In this document: positions 39,176-64,000 of the stretch, in pieces | How the letters are laid out: every line of letters begins with the position of its first letter | Position numbering within the stretch: the stretch's first letter is position 1 | From: Candidatus Rifleibacteriota bacterium | Lineage (GTDB): Bacteria > Muiribacteriota > Ozemobacteria > Ozemobacterales > Ozemobacteraceae | Assembly (NCBI GenBank): GCA_015232575.1 | Contig: JADFZL010000003.1 | Span: 380,001-444,000 of the forward strand | DNA length: 64,000 bases | Direction: 5' to 3' | The notes under the pieces: generated by a model | What the model was told of the DNA's origin: nothing | The model's database searches: none | The model's input: only the letters and a program-made list of their open reading frames with translations | Translations under genes and position numbers: made by a program

Positions 39176-40801
39176 TTAATAGTCCATATCCATGTTTGGC
39201 ATGGCTGGAGTATTTGATTTCTTTTCAGGAGCTTCGGCAACAAGGACTTCTGTGGTCAGAAGGATTGAAGCGATTGAAGAAGCATTCTGAAGTGCTGAGC
39301 GGGTAACCTTGGCTGGATCAATGACGCCGTTTCTGAACATATCGCAATAGTCGTTCTTAACAACATCGAAGCCCCATCCCGGAGTCTTCTTTTCGTTGAT
39401 CTTTTCCATGATTACTGATGGTTCGAGACCGGCATTTGTAAGGATATAGCGGATAGGAGCCTGGAGGGCTTTTCTCACGATATCGACGCCGACTTTTTCT
39501 TCGCCCTGAACTTTAAGGGTATCAAGAACGTGGATGCAGTTAAGATAGGTAACGCCGCCGCCAGCGACAACGCCTTCTTCTACTGCTGCTCTTGTTGCAG
39601 AGAGAGCATCTTCTACGCGGGTCTTTCTTTCTTTCATTTCGGTTTCAGTTGCTGCACCGACTTTGATTACTGCGACGCCGCCAGAAAGCTTTGCAAGTCT
39701 TTCCTGAAGTTTTTCTTTGTCATAAGAGCTGGTGCTCATGTCGATTTCAGTGCGAATCTGGTTGATTCTTGCCTTAATGTCGGCAGTTTTTCCAGCGCCT
39801 TCGATGATGGTGGTTTTCTCTTTTGATATGACGACCTTCTTAGCCTGTCCAAGATGTTCGAGGGTTGTCTTCTCAAGTTTGAGACCCATATCTTCGCTGA
39901 TTTTCTTTCCATTTGTGAGGACAGCGAGATCTTCGAGCATTGCTTTTCTGCGATCGCCGAATCCAGGAGCTTTAATTGCTACGCAGTTGAATGTTCCGCG
40001 GAGTTTGTTCACGACGAGAGTGGCAAGTCCTTCGCCTTCGACGTCTTCAGCAATGATGAGAAGGGGCTTGTTGACCTGTACAATCTTCTCAAGAAGAGGA
40101 AGAATGTCTTTAATTGTGTTGATCTTGCTTTCGGTGATCAGAATGTATGGATTCTCAAGAACGGCTTCCATTCTTTCCTGGTCAGTAACCATGTAGGGAC
40201 TGATGTAGCCTTTGTCGAATTCCATTCCATCGACGAAATCAAGTGTTGTGTCGAAGCTTTTTGCTTCTTCAACAGTGATTACGCCGTCTTTTCCGACTTT
40301 ATCCATTGCTTCGGCGATAACTTTGCCGATTTCCGGATCACGTGCAGAAATTGTTGCGACCTGTGCAACGCTGTCTTTGTTATCATCAACTTTTTTAGCA
40401 AGTTTTTTGATTTCATTAACAACTGCAGTTACTGCATATTCGATTCCGCGTTTTACGAAACCAGGATTTGTTCCGGCTGTAACGTTTTTGAAACCTTCAT
40501 GAACGATTGCCTGAGCAAGAACTGTAGCAGTTGTGGTTCCGTCACCGGCGACATCGTTGGTCTTTGAAGCGACTTCTTTTACAAGCTGAGCGCCCATATT
40601 TTCGAAATGATCTTCAACTTCGATTTCTTTGGCAATGGTTACGCCGTCGTTAGTAACGGTCGGGCTTCCAAATTTCTTGTCAAGAATCGCATAACAACCC
40701 TTGGGTCCAAGGGTAGCACGCACTGCATTAGCAACAATATCAACACCTTTTTCAAGTGATCTTCTGGCATCTTCCCAATAACGAAGTTGTTTAGCTGACA
40801 T
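39176..40801 (-). CDS. groL: Chaperonin GroEL, second copy
   Basis: 541 residues with all GroEL landmarks: [37 protein letters not shown], and the C-terminal catalytic region [20 protein letters not shown]. The tail is [13 protein letters not shown] and lacks the Gly-Gly-Met repeats of the other copy. It shares long identical stretches with the first copy (41226-42908), indicating a tandem duplication. It is followed by hrcA and preceded by its own groES. The absence of the GGM tail suggests altered cavity or substrate range. Confidence 0.97.
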
Positions 40802-40847
40802 AATAGATAATTCTCCTTCTTATATTCTTATTTGCTTGTAAAAAAAA

Positions 40848-41138
40848 TTAGTTAACGATGGCGAGAATATCTTCTTCACGGAGAATAAGATAATTTCTGT
40901 CATCAATCTTGATTTCTGTTCCAGAATATTTAGAAAAAATAACCTTCTGGTCTTTTCTTACTTCTGGAGCAACTCTTGTTCCGTTATCGGTAACTTTGCC
41001 AGGTCCTACGGCAACGACTGTTCCCTCGATGGGTTTTTCTTTTGACGCTGTATCAGGAAGGATTACTCCGCCTTTTGTCTTCTCAACTGCTTCTTTCGGA
41101 TAAACTATTACGCGATCATTCAGTGGTGTTAAGTTCAT
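40848..41138 (-). CDS. groS: Co-chaperonin GroES, second copy
   Basis: 96 residues from the ATG at 41138 ([20 protein letters not shown]), preceded by GGAGG; a TTG five codons further upstream is less likely. The mobile loop is [16 protein letters not shown] and the roof loop region is normal. It pairs with the GroEL directly downstream. No CIRCE was seen in front of it, so its expression probably depends on read-through past the hairpin at 41172-41193 or on a promoter in the 70-base gap. Confidence 0.95.
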
Positions 41139-41171
41139 TTTAATTTCCTCCAAATAATATTTTTATTAATT

Positions 41172-41193
41172 ACCCCGCCCGCATGAGCGGGGT
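41172..41193 (-). terminator. GC-rich hairpin between the two groESL units
   Basis: ACCCCGC (41172-41178) pairs with GCGGGGT (41187-41193), with an eight-base loop. The following bases on the minus strand are A/T-rich without a long T-run, so termination is likely partial. Confidence 0.6.
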
Positions 41194-41225
41194 TTGTTAC
41201 AATTCCAAGGTTTCCCGGACCGGAA

Positions 41226-42908
41226 TTACATCATTCCGCCCATGCCACCCATTCCACCCATACCGCCCATTCCGCCCATGCCACCCATTCCGCCCATTCC
41301 CGGATGAGGCATTGCAGAAGCTTTTTTGTCTTCCGGAGCTTCAACAACAAGAACTTCTGTGGTCAGAAGAATTGATGCAATTGATGAAGCATTCTGAAGA
41401 GCTGAGCGTGTAACCTTAGCTGGATCAATGATTCCGGCTTTGAACATATCGGTATATTCGTTCTTCATTACATCGTAGCCATAAGCTGTCTGATTCTTGG
41501 TCTGAATCTTTTCGATGATTACTGAAGGTTCGAGTCCGGCGTTGTTGAGAATGTAAGTTACCGGCTTAATCAAAGCTTTTCTTACAATTTCGATTCCCTG
41601 AAGTTCATCGCCTTCAGCTTTGAGACCGTCGAGAGCTCTGAGAGCATTGATGTAGGTGATTCCGCCGCCAGCGACGACGCCTTCTTCAACTGCTGCTCTT
41701 GTTGCTGAAAGAGCATCTTCAACGCGGGTCTTTCTTTCTTTCATTGCTGTCTCGGTTGCTGCACCGACTTTGATTACGGCTACGCCACCAGAAAGCTTTG
41801 CAAGTCTTTCCTGAAGTTTTTCTTTGTCATAGTTGCTTGTGCTGAGTTCGATTTCTTTTTTGATCTGAGAAATTCTTGCTTTGATTTCTGTTGCTTTTCC
41901 AGCGCCATCAACGATTGTTGTTTTTTCTTTGGTTACAACAATTTTCTTAGCCTGGCCAAGGTGTTCAATAGTGGCGTTCTCAAGCTTGAGACCGATATCT
42001 TCGCTGATCTTCTTAGCATTTGTAAGAATTGCGATATCTTCGAGCATAGCTTTTCTTCTGTCGCCGAATGCCGGTGCTTTAACTGCTACGCAGTTGAATG
42101 TTCCGCGAAGTCTGTTTACTACGAGAGTTGCGAGCGCTTCGCCTTCGACTTCTTCAGCAATGATCATCAGGGGCTTGTTAATCTGAACGATCTTTTCGAG
42201 CAGTGGGAGAATATCTTTGATATTTGTAAGCTTGCTTTCAGTTACGAGAATGTAGGGATTCTCAAGAACGGCTTCCATTCTTTCATGGTTGGTAACCATA
42301 TAGGGGCTGACATAACCCTTATCAAATTCCATACCATCAACGAAATCAAGTGTAGTATCGAAACTTTTTGCTTCTTCGACTGTAATGACGCCATCTTTTC
42401 CGACTTTGTCCATTGCTTCGGCAATAATTTTTCCGATTTCGTTATCACGTGCTGAAATTGTGGCAACCTGTGCAACGCTGTCTTTATTATCATCAATCTT
42501 TTTTGAAAGTTTGCGGATTTCATCAGTTACAGCTTTAACAGCTCTTTCGATTCCGCGCTTCAGATAAAGGGGAGAAGCTCCGGCTGTTGTCATTTTGAAG
42601 CCTTCGTGTGCAATTGCCTGAGCAAGCACAGTGGCTGTTGTAGTTCCGTCGCCGGCAACGTCATTGGTTTTTGATGCAACTTCTTTTACAAGCTGAACAC
42701 CAAGATTTTCAAAACGATTGGCAACTTCAATTTCTTTTGCAATCATAACGCCGTCGTTAGTGACGGTCGGGCTTCCAAAAGATTTTTGAAGAACGGCATA
42801 ACAACCTTTTGGTCCAAGGGTTGATCTGACTGCGTTTGCTACGATGTCAACACCCTTTTCGAGTGAACGACGGGCTTCATCTCCAAAACTAAGCATTTTG
42901 TGGGCCAT
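41226..42908 (-). CDS. groL: Chaperonin GroEL, first copy
   Basis: 560 residues. It has the GroEL ATPase and apical landmarks ([31 protein letters not shown]). The C-terminus is a run of about seven Gly-Gly-Met units ending GGMM, as in canonical chaperonins. It is behind the CIRCE-controlled groES and has a good AGGAG site before the ATG at 42908. It is probably the main housekeeping or heat-shock chaperonin. Confidence 0.98.
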
Positions 42909-57732: not shown

Positions 57733-58079
57733 TCATTTCTTATAGGAAAAAGATTTAAGTTATAAATCTATCGTTTAAAAATTAATTTACTTTCATCTAA
57801 AAATACCAGAATTTTACCGGAAAGAAAAGTATGAAATATTAAAATTAATCTAAATAATATCACAAATGCTGAATTTACATCCTGATAGGAGTGTTGGGGC
57901 TTAAAAAATAAACAGAACAAAAAAATTAATAAAAAACAGGAGGAAATGTATTAAAAATTATGATAAGATACTTAAAAATTATTCCTGAGGTATTTTTCTG
58001 GATTATCAACCCAGCGATTATTTTTGAATCAGGAAATCATTTAAACACAGAACTGGTCATCAGAATTGAGGGGATAAAG
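57733..58079. other. AT-rich gap with a start-stop mini reading frame
   Basis: A 347-base gap. The only notable item is a strong AGGAGG (57938-57943) followed 2 bases later by ATG-TAT-TAA (57946-57954). An in-frame ATG at 57960 could extend the next gene by 40 residues but is 16 bases from the AGGAGG. Confidence 0.5.
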
Positions 58080-58484
58080 ATGGAAATTGCTTACAAAAAT
58101 GTTCTATTTTGTGAAGATATCAGACAGGAAATTGGTGGAAGAGTAAGCCTGATGGGAATATTAGGCTCGACAATTTACGTCCAATATTTTCCAGTGCTTT
58201 TTCCCAAATTCTGTCTTTTTGTTGAATGGGGAGAAATCCTCGGTAAGCATACTGTTCACCTCAATATCATTCCTCCCGCTGGAGTTTCGCTTCCGGCAGT
58301 TAAGCCTTCAGCGGAAATTCGTGGGCAACCAGGAGTAATAGCAAGATCAATGATTGTGCTGAATAGTTTTGTCTTTCCTTCCCAAGGTACATATTTCTTT
58401 GAATTTTATAAAGGAACTGACAAAATAGGCAGAGAAAAGATGACAATTGAAAAATACGAAGCTCCCGCTGGTATGGCAAATTGA
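58080..58484 (+). CDS. DUF6941-like protein
   Basis: 134 residues from the ATG at 58080, preceded by GAGGGGAT. MEIAYKNVLFCEDIRQEIGG then VSLMGILGSTIYVQYFPVLF is the family start, and the rest is beta-rich (FLFVEWGEILGKHTVHLNII). Members are small cytoplasmic proteins of unknown function, often phage- or signalling-linked. An upstream in-frame ATG at 57960 would add 40 residues. It ends 23 bases before the next gene. Confidence 0.75.
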   Translation: MEIAYKNVLFCEDIRQEIGGRVSLMGILGSTIYVQYFPVLFPKFCLFVEWGEILGKHTVHLNIIPPAGVSLPAVKPSAEIRGQPGVIARSMIVLNSFVFPSQGTYFFEFYKGTDKIGREKMTIEKYEAPAGMAN

Positions 58485-58507
58485 AAAATTCGACAAGGGT
58501 GTTAGAA

Positions 58508-59722
58508 ATGAATCAAAATCCAGAAGAAGAGTTTGCAAACCTGCTGGAAAAATCCGAAAAAGAACCAGGTGGATATCTTCAGGAAATTGCCAAAAATGTT
58601 CATGCCTCGCCTGATAAGTATTTTCCATTGCTTGTTTCTGCACTTGACAATAATCCCGTCACCATGACACCAGTCTTAAACGAACTCTTTTCTGGACATC
58701 TGAATAAATTAGTATCTAAGCTCGTATTCCCGTTATTAAATGATACTAATTTGCAAAATCGTTTTATCTGGGCATCGAATTTTCTTTCTGAAAATTACTC
58801 TGATGGTGCGGCAAAACATCTAATTAATGCACTTTCGGACACAAAGAAAAATATAGTACTTGCGGCAGTGAAAGCCCTTGCTGCCTTAAGAGATGCTGAT
58901 TCGATAAGAGCGTTAAAAGATTTCTTTATTAATTCCACTGATGAGGTTCAGTTATCGGCTTCCATCCGCTATCTTCTCCCGATCTCAGACAGGATTTCTC
59001 CCGAATTTATTCAGAACTTTGATCGTTATCCGGTCAACAGACAGATCTGGATAATGAAGTTTCTGTCTGAATCCAAGGTCAGCGAAGCATTTCAAATTTA
59101 TGTAAAATCTCTCAGAGAAGAACCGCTTATTCTTGGAATTTTCGCCGTTGCAGGTCTCGGAAATATTGGCGAGGAAAGATGCGTTGAAATCCTCGCAAAC
59201 GTGCTGAGCCATAAAGAATGGTTTCTCCGAAAAAGAGCAGCAGATGCCCTTGGAATGTGTCATTTTCCTTCATCAGTGCCACACCTTGTAAATGCCCTTA
59301 CTGATTCTTCCATTCAAATCAGGACTTCGGCCGTCGAAAGTTTATCGAAAATTGGAAACCTGAATCTTGATTGTCTGATAGATGGACTTAAAAACGGAGA
59401 CCACAACCAGAAAGTTGGCCTGATTAAAGCTTTTGGTCAGATAAAAAGCTCAAAACTAGTTGAACCTCTTATTAACATTCTTTCTAACCGTTCAACACTT
59501 TTCTTTTCTATTGATGCTCTCGGTGACATTGGCGACCAGCGTGCAGTAAAACACCTCATGCCGTTTCTGAAAGATGAGGAATGGTTTAACAGACTGAACG
59601 CACTTGAAGCTCTCGGTAAAATAAGGCCACCTGATATCATTGAAACAGCAAAAAAGTGCCTGGAAGACCCCAACGATATGGTTAGAAATTCAGCTCAGAG
59701 AATAATTCAGCAGAAAAACTGA
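58508..59722 (+). CDS. HEAT-repeat protein
   Basis: 404 residues from the ATG at 58508 (MNQNPEEEFANLLEKSEKEP). The C-terminal 200 residues are clear HEAT repeats (e.g. CVEILANVLSHKEWFLRKRA, AVKHLMPFLKDEEWFNRLNA) of the PBS-lyase-like type; the N-terminal part is more divergent. No membrane segment. It is convergent with the kinase-less CheA paralogue, 3 bases apart, with no terminator visible in the gap. Confidence 0.88.
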   Translation: MNQNPEEEFANLLEKSEKEPGGYLQEIAKNVHASPDKYFPLLVSALDNNPVTMTPVLNELFSGHLNKLVSKLVFPLLNDTNLQNRFIWASNFLSENYSDGAAKHLINALSDTKKNIVLAAVKALAALRDADSIRALKDFFINSTDEVQLSASIRYLLPISDRISPEFIQNFDRYPVNRQIWIMKFLSESKVSEAFQIYVKSLREEPLILGIFAVAGLGNIGEERCVEILANVLSHKEWFLRKRAADALGMCHFPSSVPHLVNALTDSSIQIRTSAVESLSKIGNLNLDCLIDGLKNGDHNQKVGLIKAFGQIKSSKLVEPLINILSNRSTLFFSIDALGDIGDQRAVKHLMPFLKDEEWFNRLNALEALGKIRPPDIIETAKKCLEDPNDMVRNSAQRIIQQKN

Positions 59723-59725
59723 GTA

Positions 59726-61393
59726 TCAGCCAAATATTACTTTTCTTGCATTGAGCAGTATGATCAGTTTTCCATGAAGTTTGCCTACGCCGCTTAAGTA
59801 TTCTACGTCAACACTTTCTGAAACCTTTGAAGGTTCTTCAATAGAATTTTGCGGAAGTCTTATTACTTCATGTACGCCATCAACAAGAAAGCCTACTTTG
59901 ACTTTTTCTGCTTCAAAGTGAAGAATAACAATCTGATCGGTTGCTACGCGCTGTTTTCTGTCTATTTTCAAACGATGTCTCAAGTTAATAACCGGAACTA
60001 TTTCGCCGCGCATATTTATTACTCCTTCAATAAATGAAGGTGCTTTTGGGACTCTTGTTATGGGAAGAAGGTTAATAATTCCCTCAACCTGCGAAATGTC
60101 AAAAGCATAAATTTCTCCCGCCATTTTAAAACTTACAAGCTGAACAAGCTCAATTGTTTCTCTATGATTTTCACGATTCTTCGCCTCGTCCATTTCAGAA
60201 AAAATACCTTCATATTTTTTGGGTGATTTACTCTGGAATTTGCTTAAATCCAGCTCTTTGGCTTCGGGAGTTTGTGCAGGCTGCACATTTTCCTGTTGGC
60301 GTTGGCCATATACAGGAGCCGAAGATGCTGTTGAAGCAACCGCTCCCTGAGAAAAATTCTGTTGCGGTGGAGCAATTGGCTGAAGGCTCTCAGTGCTGGT
60401 TTGCGGACGCTGAGGCATCTGCTGCTGTCTTATTCTGGTTTGAGCCTGTTGTGTCGGCTGGGCAGGTTTTGGTGGAGGAACAGGGGTTGAAACCTGTGGA
60501 GGCGGTTCTGGCACTTGAGGTTTAGGTGGGGCGGCCGATGGAGCATTCTCAGAAGCTTCATGGTGCCCTGATTTTATTGACTCCGGAGAAAAGAATTCGA
60601 CATGACAATCTTCTATTTCACAAATTTCCTTCACCGCGTCAGATATTTCAGAAGTTTGCTTATCTGAAAGAATTATCATCTGGAAAGATCGGTCAAACTT
60701 TTCGTTTTCAAGATCTTTCTGATCGGGAATTGATTTGACGATCTCACATTTAAGGCCATCAAGAGCTCTGATTATCATGAAAACTCTCGGACCTTTCAGA
60801 AGACAATCAGCAACAAGTTTTACATCAAGTAATGCAGTGTGAAGATTTCTATGCTGAGCTTCTAATAAGCCACCAAGCTCATATTCACTGAACTCAAAAT
60901 CTTTTATTCCCTGAAGAAAAGCAGATAAAGGTTGATTCGACGGAACACTACTATTGGAAGTTCTTGATTCTGAGGTTTTGACAGATGCAGAAACCTGCCC
61001 CTGAGTTGACGAATCAAAAAGAGATTTGAGTTTTTCAAGAATTTCGGTAAGTTCAATTCCTGAATCACCGCCGGAAATACTATCATTAACCAGGCTTCGC
61101 AATACATCAAAAGTTTCAAAAAGAACATCAATAACACGCGAATCAACCCCGCGCTTTCCTGTTCTCAGAAGATCAAGAATGTTTTCCATCTCATGGGTAA
61201 GGTGTGCAATCTTTTCATAACCCATTGTAGCAGACATGCCTTTGAGCGTGTGGGCAGCACGAAAGATTTCTCCGGTTGCTTCTTTATTCTCAGGATTCTG
61301 CTCAAGTGCAAGAAGCATTTTATCCATAAGATCAAGGTTTTCTCTTGATCCATCGATATATGCACCCATGAATTGATTCAGATCAATATCCAA
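59726..61393 (-). CDS. CheA paralogue without kinase domains: HPt-P2-CheW
   Basis: 555 residues if the TTG at 61393 is the start; the longer frame begins with a GTG at 61423 inside a repeat hairpin. It has an HPt domain with phosphorylatable His in FRAAHTLKGMSATMGY (about residues 45-60), a P2-like region similar to the adjacent CheA (LVADCLLKGPRVFMIIRALD), a Pro/Gln-rich linker (about 280-380) and a C-terminal CheW domain (VQLVSFKMAGEIYAFDISQV). The P3 dimerisation and P4 ATP-binding domains are absent. It could accept phosphoryl groups from CheA and dock receptors through CheW, acting as a scaffold or phosphate sink. Confidence 0.85.
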   Translation of the reverse strand: MDIDLNQFMGAYIDGSRENLDLMDKMLLALEQNPENKEATGEIFRAAHTLKGMSATMGYEKIAHLTHEMENILDLLRTGKRGVDSRVIDVLFETFDVLRSLVNDSISGGDSGIELTEILEKLKSLFDSSTQGQVSASVKTSESRTSNSSVPSNQPLSAFLQGIKDFEFSEYELGGLLEAQHRNLHTALLDVKLVADCLLKGPRVFMIIRALDGLKCEIVKSIPDQKDLENEKFDRSFQMIILSDKQTSEISDAVKEICEIEDCHVEFFSPESIKSGHHEASENAPSAAPPKPQVPEPPPQVSTPVPPPKPAQPTQQAQTRIRQQQMPQRPQTSTESLQPIAPPQQNFSQGAVASTASSAPVYGQRQQENVQPAQTPEAKELDLSKFQSKSPKKYEGIFSEMDEAKNRENHRETIELVQLVSFKMAGEIYAFDISQVEGIINLLPITRVPKAPSFIEGVINMRGEIVPVINLRHRLKIDRKQRVATDQIVILHFEAEKVKVGFLVDGVHEVIRLPQNSIEEPSKVSESVDVEYLSGVGKLHGKLIILLNARKVIFG

Positions 61394-61410: not shown

Positions 61411-61850
61411 TTAGAGGGGGCACGCGCCCCCTCTCGGCGGTCGAACAAGTTCGACCACCTTCACTCCCCGCGGTCGAGCACTTTGTGCTCTCCGCTTTCG
61501 CGATGACTACGTTTTATTCGGTGGCTGGCACCTTATTTTACCTTGCTTCTGGGGCACGCGCCCCACCTTCACTCCCCGCGGTCGAGCACTTTGTGCTCTC
61601 CGCTTTCGCGATGACTACGTTTTATTCGGTGGCTGGCACCTTATTTTACCTTGCTTCTGGGGCACGCGCCCCACCTTCACTCCCCGCGGTCGAGCACTTT
61701 GTGCTCTCCGCTTTTGCGGTGACTACGTTTTATTCGGTGGCTTGCACCTTATTTTACCTTGCTTCTGGGGCACGCGCCCCACCTTCACTCCCCGCGGTCG
61801 AGCACTTTGTGCTCTCCGCTTTCGCGATGACTACGTTTTATACGTAGACC
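61411..61850. repeat. 108-bp tandem repeat array with palindromic units
   Basis: A stem AGAGGGGGC/GCCCCCTCT (61411-61432) and the palindrome GGTCGAACAAGTTCGACC (61439-61456) are followed by a 108-bp unit. Its core begins at 61466, 61574, 61682 and 61790, so there are three full copies and a partial fourth. Each unit has the hairpin GAGCACTTTGTGCTC and the palindrome-like GGGGCACGCGCCCC. The first block is identical to 27578-27607. The array fills the 518-base gap between the two cheA-type genes; an in-frame reading through it exists only because 108 is a multiple of 3. Confidence 0.95.
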
Positions 61851-61941: not shown

Positions 61942-64000
61942 TTACCAGCGAGTTTGCAGAAACGCTGGAATATCAAGAATCAATGCGATGCTTCCGTCTC
62001 CGCGCATAGTTGCACCCATGAGGCCGGGCAGACCTCCAAGAAGATTTCCAAGTGATTTAATAACGATTTCCTGCTGTCCAAGAAGTTCATCGACCATAAA
62101 ACCTGCACGCTTCTCACCTGAAGAACAAACAACAATTGATATCTCTTCGGTTTTTTCCTTTTCATCTGGAATCTTTGGCACATCCAGATAATTTCGAAGT
62201 CTGATTATCGGCAGAACTTCGCCTCTGAGAAGAGTGACTTCCTGGTGTTGAACAATATTTATGTCAGCTGATGTTATATCCATTGTCTCCTGAACCGAAC
62301 CAAGAGGAATTGCGTATGTTTCATTTCCCAACTTAACCATCAAAGCCTGTAGAATAGCCAGTGTGAGCGGAAGTTTAATAAAGACACGTGAGCCTTCGCC
62401 AACTTTTGATTCGATGTCCAACTGACCACCAAGTTCATCAAGTTTAGTCTTTACAGCATCCATACCAACACCACGTCCTGAAATATCACTGACAACAGTA
62501 TTGGTTGAAAAACCCGGAAGAAATATAATTTTTGTAATTTCTTCAACAGGCATACGATCAATCTGCTCCTGAGTAAATAGACCTTTTCTTACTGCTGACG
62601 CACCTACAATTTTTGGATCAATTCCTTTTCCATCGTCACGAACTTCTATGATGACATGATTCCCTTCATGACGTGCTGTCAGCGTTATAGTCCCTGTCTC
62701 AGATTTCCCTTTTGAAACCCTTTCAGCCGGCTCTTCAATGCCGTGATCTATTGAATTTCTTATCAGATGAACCATCGGATCACCAATTTCATCAATAACC
62801 GTACGATCCATTTCTGTTTCCTTGCCCTCAAGAATAAGATCAATCTTTTTATTCAACTTTTTGGAAAGATCTCTGACCATTCTTGGAAATCGATCAAAAA
62901 CCTGCTCGATAGGAACCATTCGGACTTGCATTACAACATTCTGCAATGAAAGACTTATCTGAGAAATTCTCGTCAATGCTTCGTTCAGATCTTTCAACCG
63001 ATGAGCAGCTCCAATGTCAGCTAGTCTGGTTCTATTTATAACCAGCTCGCCAACGAGATTCATCAATTCGTCAAGTCGACGCATATCAACCCTGACGGTC
63101 TGATTTCCCTTTTTTTCTGTAGATTGAACTTTTTTCGAAGGATCAGCAGCAGCCGATAAAGCAACAGCAGCACCCGGTGAAGAAACGGGAGTAGAAGATG
63201 ATCCTGAAGATTTTCCAGCAATACCACCAGAGGAAGGCGATTGCGGCATCGTATCAGCGTGAGCTGAGGAACCTCCACCCGATGCCTGAGCAGCTGGTTT
63301 AGAAGGTAAACGCTGGGAAGAAGATTGTAAAGACTGCGCTCTGGAAGAACCTGAATCACTGGAAGAACCCATTGATGGCCTGGAAGGACTTCCAGATGAT
63401 GGTTTCAAGCTTTCAAGCGCCAACGGAGTAACTTCAACACTCTCGATTTCAGAAATCTGTTCAATTACCTGTTTAACATTTTCTGCTTTTCCAGGAGTGA
63501 CAAGGATCATGCTGAATGAAAGCTCAAATTTTTCCTGCTCAAGATCTTTTGTATCTGGAACAGATTTGATAATATCACAGCCTATTTCTTCAAGATTCTT
63601 TACGATCATGAAGGCACGCGGAGCTTTCAGAAGGCAATCGGGGGCAAGACTGACAAACAGCAGGAAAACGCTCAGATTTTGTTTCTTGGCTTCCTTGAGA
63701 ACCTGAATTTCATACTCATTAAGAGGAAAATCAAGCTTGTCAATGGATTTTGTTGTGTCTGCTTCAGCTGCAGAACCGCCATAACCTGATGAAGAGTGCC
63801 CTGAAGAAGTTTCCTTTTCAGAAGAAGAAGTTTTTGCAGGTGCACCGGTAAGAGCATGAAGCTTGCCTATAACAATATTTACATCAATATTTGAATCATT
63901 TGATGCAATAGTATCGTTTACAAGTACTCTGAGAACATCAAATGTTTCAAAAAGAACATCAACGATTTCTGTTGTTACGGAAAACTGCTTGTTCCTCAGT
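61942..64000 (-). CDS. cheA: Chemotaxis histidine kinase CheA (5' truncated at window end)
   Basis: At least 686 codons; the frame stays open to base 64000. An ATG at 63609 is internal, because the upstream frame still reads CheA sequence (VDVLFETFDVLRVLVNDTIA). It begins in the C-terminal part of the HPt domain, followed by a P2-like region (APRAFMIVKNLEEIGCDIIK), a Ser-rich linker, P3 (VDMRRLDELMNLVGELVINR), the P4 ATPase (HLIRNSIDHGIE, DDGKGI, GRGVGMDAV) and a C-terminal CheW domain. It autophosphorylates and phosphorylates CheY/CheB-type regulators, none of which are in the window. The adjoining paralogue lacks P3-P4. Confidence 0.96.
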   Translation of the reverse strand, partial: LRNKQFSVTTEIVDVLFETFDVLRVLVNDTIASNDSNIDVNIVIGKLHALTGAPAKTSSSEKETSSGHSSSGYGGSAAEADTTKSIDKLDFPLNEYEIQVLKEAKKQNLSVFLLFVSLAPDCLLKAPRAFMIVKNLEEIGCDIIKSVPDTKDLEQEKFELSFSMILVTPGKAENVKQVIEQISEIESVEVTPLALESLKPSSGSPSRPSMGSSSDSGSSRAQSLQSSSQRLPSKPAAQASGGGSSAHADTMPQSPSSGGIAGKSSGSSSTPVSSPGAAVALSAAADPSKKVQSTEKKGNQTVRVDMRRLDELMNLVGELVINRTRLADIGAAHRLKDLNEALTRISQISLSLQNVVMQVRMVPIEQVFDRFPRMVRDLSKKLNKKIDLILEGKETEMDRTVIDEIGDPMVHLIRNSIDHGIEEPAERVSKGKSETGTITLTARHEGNHVIIEVRDDGKGIDPKIVGASAVRKGLFTQEQIDRMPVEEITKIIFLPGFSTNTVVSDISGRGVGMDAVKTKLDELGGQLDIESKVGEGSRVFIKLPLTLAILQALMVKLGNETYAIPLGSVQETMDITSADINIVQHQEVTLLRGEVLPIIRLRNYLDVPKIPDEKEKTEEISIVVCSSGEKRAGFMVDELLGQQEIVIKSLGNLLGGLPGLMGATMRGDGSIALILDIPAFLQTRW

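Follow-up and report, generated by a model that had tools for sequence, protein, structure and literature searches.

A chemotaxis protein joining a CheW adaptor to CheA-derived P1 and P2 domains: a candidate array-bound phosphocarrier

Chemotaxis arrays are usually described as carrying all of their P1 and P2 heads on CheA, with CheW serving as a passive scaffold. In Cereibacter (Rhodobacter) sphaeroides, CheA3 lacks a working kinase domain; CheA4 phosphorylates it in trans, and CheA3 passes the phosphoryl group on to CheY6 (PMC3591291, PMC10782961). Models of the CheWS protein of T. denticola position its CheW-fused domain next to the P4 domain of CheA, beneath the ring (PMC10653840). All of the sequences included in a survey of CheA carried the core P1, P3, P4 and P5 domains (PMC10782961), and a survey of CheW architectures removed Hpt-bearing CheW proteins as CheA (PMC10653840). 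Given these inclusion rules, the protein type that we describe here, P1-P2-CheW with no kinase, would have been missed by both surveys (PMC10653840, PMC10782961). It appears to be undescribed in the openly accessible literature that we searched, which is no proof of novelty.

The protein is encoded in a stretch of 64,000 nucleotides (the window; positions 380,001 to 444,000 of contig JADFZL010000003.1, GenBank assembly GCA_015232575.1) from a Candidatus Rifleibacteriota bacterium. Its gene, S (59726..61393, minus strand), specifies 555 amino acids in the order P1-P2-linker-CheW and is supported by Pfam matches, the alignment of orthologues and purifying selection in those orthologues. The TTG start at 61393 aligns with the starts of S in relatives; a longer frame from a GTG at 61423 was rejected because its extra residues have no counterpart in the closest relatives. 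Above the Pfam cut-offs, the product matches Hpt (1.4e-14, aa 10-97), P2 (PF07194; 3.8e-18, aa 190-266) and CheW (5.1e-34, aa 418-552), whereas H-kinase_dim and HATPase_c, both detected in the adjacent CheA, gave no match in S even at E<=1. The domain search of both proteins thus agrees with a preliminary description of S as an HPt-P2-CheW protein without a kinase; P3 and P4 are present only in the neighbor. Like CheA, S has a P1/Hpt domain with a phosphorylatable histidine, but P3, P4 and a CheA-type P5 are missing. Like CheW, it has a CheW-related domain with the conserved arginine of the N-(L/M)-R-G motif (R462, invariant in the alignment), but it is not a single-domain protein, since P1 and P2 are fused to it N-terminally. 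By domain membership, S is a CheW-domain fusion and no CheA.

In an AlphaFold2 model built with 16 orthologues, a P1 of five helices and a P2 fold are followed by a disordered linker and a CheW fold that is of lower confidence in places. The P1/HPt domain (aa 1-130; 61004..61393, minus strand), with helices at residues 5-32, 37-57, 60-77, 85-107 and 116-130, is supported by Pfam, the model, Foldseek (rmsd 1.6 to 1i5n) and its identity to the P1 of the adjacent CheA. The phosphorylatable histidine, reported earlier as intact, is H48, encoded by CAC (61250..61252, minus strand). Alignment with the P1 of T. maritima CheA (1tqg) identifies it, together with K51, H67 and E70, in register with the phospho-site network of that domain; we take the four residues to be the P1 phospho-site/active-site network of S. 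The CheY-binding P2 domain (PF07194, aa 190-266; 60596..60826, minus strand) superimposes on 1u0s_A, the P2 of T. maritima in complex with its CheY, with a TM score by target of 0.94 in Foldseek. A disordered linker rich in proline and glutamine follows (aa 277-412; 60158..60565, minus strand), with pLDDT mostly below 50 and a length that varies from 82 to 163 aa in 20 orthologues. The C-terminal adaptor domain (aa 418-552; 59738..60142, minus strand) has CheW structures as its top structural matches in Foldseek and was assigned to the CheW rather than the CheA-P5 type by Pfam, the PDB search, Foldseek, the tree and an AU test.

S is located downstream of the complete CheA that the preliminary description had placed beside it. 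That protein has 760 aa and is encoded on the minus strand at 61942..64000, from where the gene runs past the window edge (G000:C33:441942-444224; Pfam and extended contig). The window holds its last 685 aa, with P2, H-kinase_dim, HATPase_c and CheW domains by Pfam; the first ~75 residues and the P1 histidine lie outside it, and the extended contig reveals an intact P1-P2-P3-P4-P5 protein with its own H48. The 548-bp gap between cheA and S contains a tandem array of a dispersed repeat (61455..61841, unstranded; period 108, 3.6 copies) that is outside the system. The 24-bp core of the repeat, GGTCGAGCACTTTGTGCTCTCCGC, has 57 exact copies genome-wide, including those at 61455-61841 and 27584 of the window; four copies sit between cheA and S. 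Copies often form short tandem arrays, with a period that varies by array from about 51 to 122 bp. A promoter and terminator scan of the gap found nothing above chance. On the other side, S adjoins genes of the opposite strand for a DUF6941 protein (57960-58484) and a HEAT-repeat protein (58481-59722), which recur beside S in most genomes of the family, with ruvX- and alaS-like genes after them. In genus g1, a gene for a CHASE2-guanylate/adenylate cyclase (L031:8344-10203) lies immediately upstream of cheA, the place taken by flagellar genes in other genera. Elsewhere in the window (39176-42908) are two adjoining genes that we read from their sequence as presumably groEL-like (541 and 560 aa), the second with a GGM-type tail.

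Across the window's family (f1), S is present in 20 of 24 genomes, some of them incomplete, and in ten genera. CheA, or the part of it left on the contig, ends directly upstream of S in 18 of these 20. The G021 contig breaks off just before S, and G007 (64% complete), in which no H-kinase_dim was detected, has other genes upstream of S, which is not beside CheA there. In three of the genomes lacking S (G005, G009 and G012), a contig end truncates the CheA; the fourth, G013 (70% complete), has neither the cheA-S pair nor FliM and is the sole exception to the presence of FliM in the 14 genomes tested. In most genera the pair stands at the end of a flagellar operon of the flhA-flhG type, and in most genomes the two genes are 2-61 bp apart; in genus g1 (the window's genome, G000, and G001) and in G010, flhG is not directly upstream of the pair. 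The G000 genome (7.05 Mb) has P2 domains of this type only twice, both in the cheA-S pair, and encodes 12 CheA-type (H-kinase_dim) kinases, which makes cross-talk possible in it. Two of its proteins each contain about three CheW-type domains in tandem (G000:C8; L034 2782-4698 and 9138-11012). A single CheA was found in the FliM-bearing genomes G003, G006, G010 and G014, and the adjacent CheA is thus the only CheA-type donor for S in them.

No P2 protein of 500-600 aa was found in the families of the phylum outside f1. In a scan of 382 genomes, all at least 80% complete, none of the short P2-bearing frames inspected outside the phylum had the P1-P2-CheW architecture; the scan was blind to Hpt-CheW proteins lacking P2. 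Such frames in G389, G177, G312, G186, G322, G079 and G143 were rejected as split or truncated CheA or had no chemotaxis domain that we could find. Family f5 has a rearranged CheA of 829 aa in the order P3-P4-P5-P1-P2 (L098:5304-7793; also L097, L099, L100 and L101), which in L097, L098, L099 and L101 adjoins a 1096-aa CheA in the order P1-P1-P2-P3-P4-P5 (L098:2004-5294).

Finite, non-zero dN/dS values between close relatives were 0.008-0.051 for the P1 of S, 0.027-0.17 for its P2 and 0.034-0.114 for its CheW domain (Nei-Gojobori method; synonymous sites are saturated in more distant pairs, where the values are approximate or undefined). The domains of CheA itself have similar values, and those of the linkers are mostly higher. 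Judged by these ratios, the domains of S are evidently under purifying selection.

To what was computed for S (domain content, CheW identity, descent of P1 and P2, conservation and purifying selection, flagellar co-location) we add a mechanism, in which we infer its lattice placement, its phosphorylation in trans, the transfer to CheY and the effect on gain. S is, on balance, probably an array-bound hybrid adaptor: a CheW with a P1-P2 head copied from CheA, phosphorylated in trans by the adjacent CheA and feeding the CheY on its own P2. Within the receptor/CheA/CheW lattice that serves flagellar chemotaxis, the CheW domain would occupy sites of the CheW type. Without P3 and P4, S cannot phosphorylate itself; instead, its P1, on the long flexible tether, would be phosphorylated at H48 by the P4 of the adjacent CheA and hand the phosphoryl group to the CheY held by P2. 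One array could then present more P1/P2 heads and more docked CheY per kinase, in numbers set by the stoichiometry of CheW and not of CheA. The precedent of CheA3, the CheWS models and the single-CheA genomes favor such a trans-fed carrier, and we retain, as the best functional guess, the suggestion of the preliminary description that S is a second phosphoryl carrier attached to the same array. Other observations run counter to it: with P1 and P2 domains of its own, the adjacent CheA can complete the pathway without S; separate CheW proteins also exist; and in G007 S does not adjoin CheA. The idea that S is the only CheW of the system was rejected, as a conserved stand-alone CheW is encoded beside rpsI- and cdd-like genes.

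Natural variants lower our confidence in a role of S purely as phosphocarrier. The H48/K51/H67/E70 network is kept in 18 of the 20 S proteins; in those of G010 and G023, H48 is replaced by alanine and the Pfam Hpt domain is undetectable, whereas P2 and CheW are retained. The P1 branches of the two are long (1.42 and 2.27, respectively) and the CheW branch of G023 is short (0.13). G010 is the safer example of an S without H48, because G023 is listed with 9% contamination. The retention of P2 and CheW after the loss of H48 indicates that phosphotransfer by S is dispensable in those lineages. The adaptor/P2 function can therefore outlive phosphotransfer, which is not the sole use of S. These two proteins are what one would expect if S were mainly a structural adaptor that docks CheY, its CheW domain building or tuning the array and its P2 concentrating CheY, with phosphorylation of P1 secondary. 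We regard this reading as unlikely: a purely structural role would not need H48, K51, H67 and E70, yet most S proteins keep this motif and selection on P1 is about as strong as in CheA. The G010 and G023 lineages are ready-made natural mutants in which to tell the role of S as an adaptor apart from those in CheY docking and phosphotransfer.

S could also act as a negative regulator or phosphate buffer, its P1 competing with that of CheA for P4, or storing and returning phosphoryl groups, and in this way damping CheY-P. By mass action, a further P1 added to the array would be a competitor for P4, and CheV, another CheW fusion, has been proposed as a phosphate sink (PMC4742279). Yet P2 speeds transfer to CheY and its conservation in S has no obvious place in a sink; moreover, a candidate CheY-P phosphatase, a CheX-like domain (weak matches), is encoded in an ORF beside fliM in several f1 genomes. 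The phosphate sink of the preliminary description thus survives as a possible function, whereas a pure sink is not favored, and we hold buffering to be a rather improbable main role for S.

How S arose can be read from its domains one at a time. The preliminary description had S as probably a CheA paralogue that lost P3 and P4, and its observation that the P2 regions of the two proteins are related holds and extends to P1: both are clear paralogues of the corresponding domains in the adjacent CheA (74% identity for P1, 46% for P2), and in trees each shares one clade with the adjacent CheA that excludes the other CheAs included (support 93/95 for P1 and 97/91 for P2). The C-terminal domain tells otherwise. 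It matched only CheW in the PDB search, in which the P5 of the adjacent CheA matches CheA P5 first; its identity is 39% to a stand-alone CheW encoded in the same genome versus 28% to the adjacent P5; and a split with 100/98 support places it with the CheW proteins in the tree, where all of the S CheW domains form one clade (99/100). Forcing the S CheW domains together with the P5 domains of the family's CheA, a clade taken from the earlier hypothesis of origin, cost 84 log-likelihood units (AU p=7.6e-38). From these comparisons, P1 and P2 of S evidently derive from the adjacent CheA, and the C-terminus has the relationships of a true CheW adaptor, not of a P5. Origin from CheA by loss of P3 and P4 is thus rejected for the C-terminal domain, unless a P5 was later replaced by a CheW, and we consider it very improbable. 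Instead, the simplest account is that a duplicated 5' half of cheA, encoding P1 and P2, was fused once to a cheW gene before the family radiated. Nor does the linker hide the kinase domains, as it is disordered and, at 82-163 aa, too short for P3 plus P4. We give almost no credence to S being a pseudogene or an assembly artifact, as the repeat array that parts it from cheA in the window's genome might suggest, because the same open frame, under strong purifying selection, recurs in 20 genomes, which also rules out an artificial frameshift.

We see an even chance that S represents a class of chemotaxis adaptor not described before, one that fills CheW positions of the array with mobile phosphocarriers that dock CheY and are supplied by a complete CheA. 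If true, the number of phosphorelay heads would be uncoupled from the number of kinases, and placing P1 and P2 on CheW would offer a natural means of altering the gain of the array. Several known proteins share parts of this design. CheV (CheW-REC) and CheWS (CheW with a CheR-like domain) likewise join an array-anchored CheW to a signaling module (PMC4742279, PMC10653840), but the module in S is a phosphotransfer head and not a receiver or SAM sensor. Bipartite CheA, in which the Hpt is a separate gene beside cheA, also has a separate P1-bearing protein encoded next to the kinase gene (PMC10782961); however, the bipartite kinase lacks an Hpt of its own, unlike the partner of S, and S has P2 and CheW in addition. 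In another phylum, a 394-aa Hpt-P2 protein (G296, L148:4550-5734) sits, like S, beside a complete CheA, with a cheW gene on its other side, and differs from S in having no CheW tether; it also has no kinase and is possibly an independent extra phosphotransfer head. The nearest functional parallel would be CheA3 of R. sphaeroides. Both are second CheA-like proteins of the same operon, encoded beside a kinase, with a P1 (a working one in CheA3) and, at the C-terminus, a domain of the CheW type, and without a working kinase (PMC3591291, PMC10782961). CheA3, however, retains degenerate remnants of P2, H-kinase_dim and HATPase_c in a middle region of ~794 aa and probably descends from a full CheA, whereas in S the P2 is intact, no remnant of a kinase is present and the C-terminal domain is a true CheW. 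Further, CheA4, the partner of CheA3, lacks P1, so that the two form a split kinase, whereas the CheA beside S is complete, with the H48 of its P1 intact wherever its N-terminus is present.
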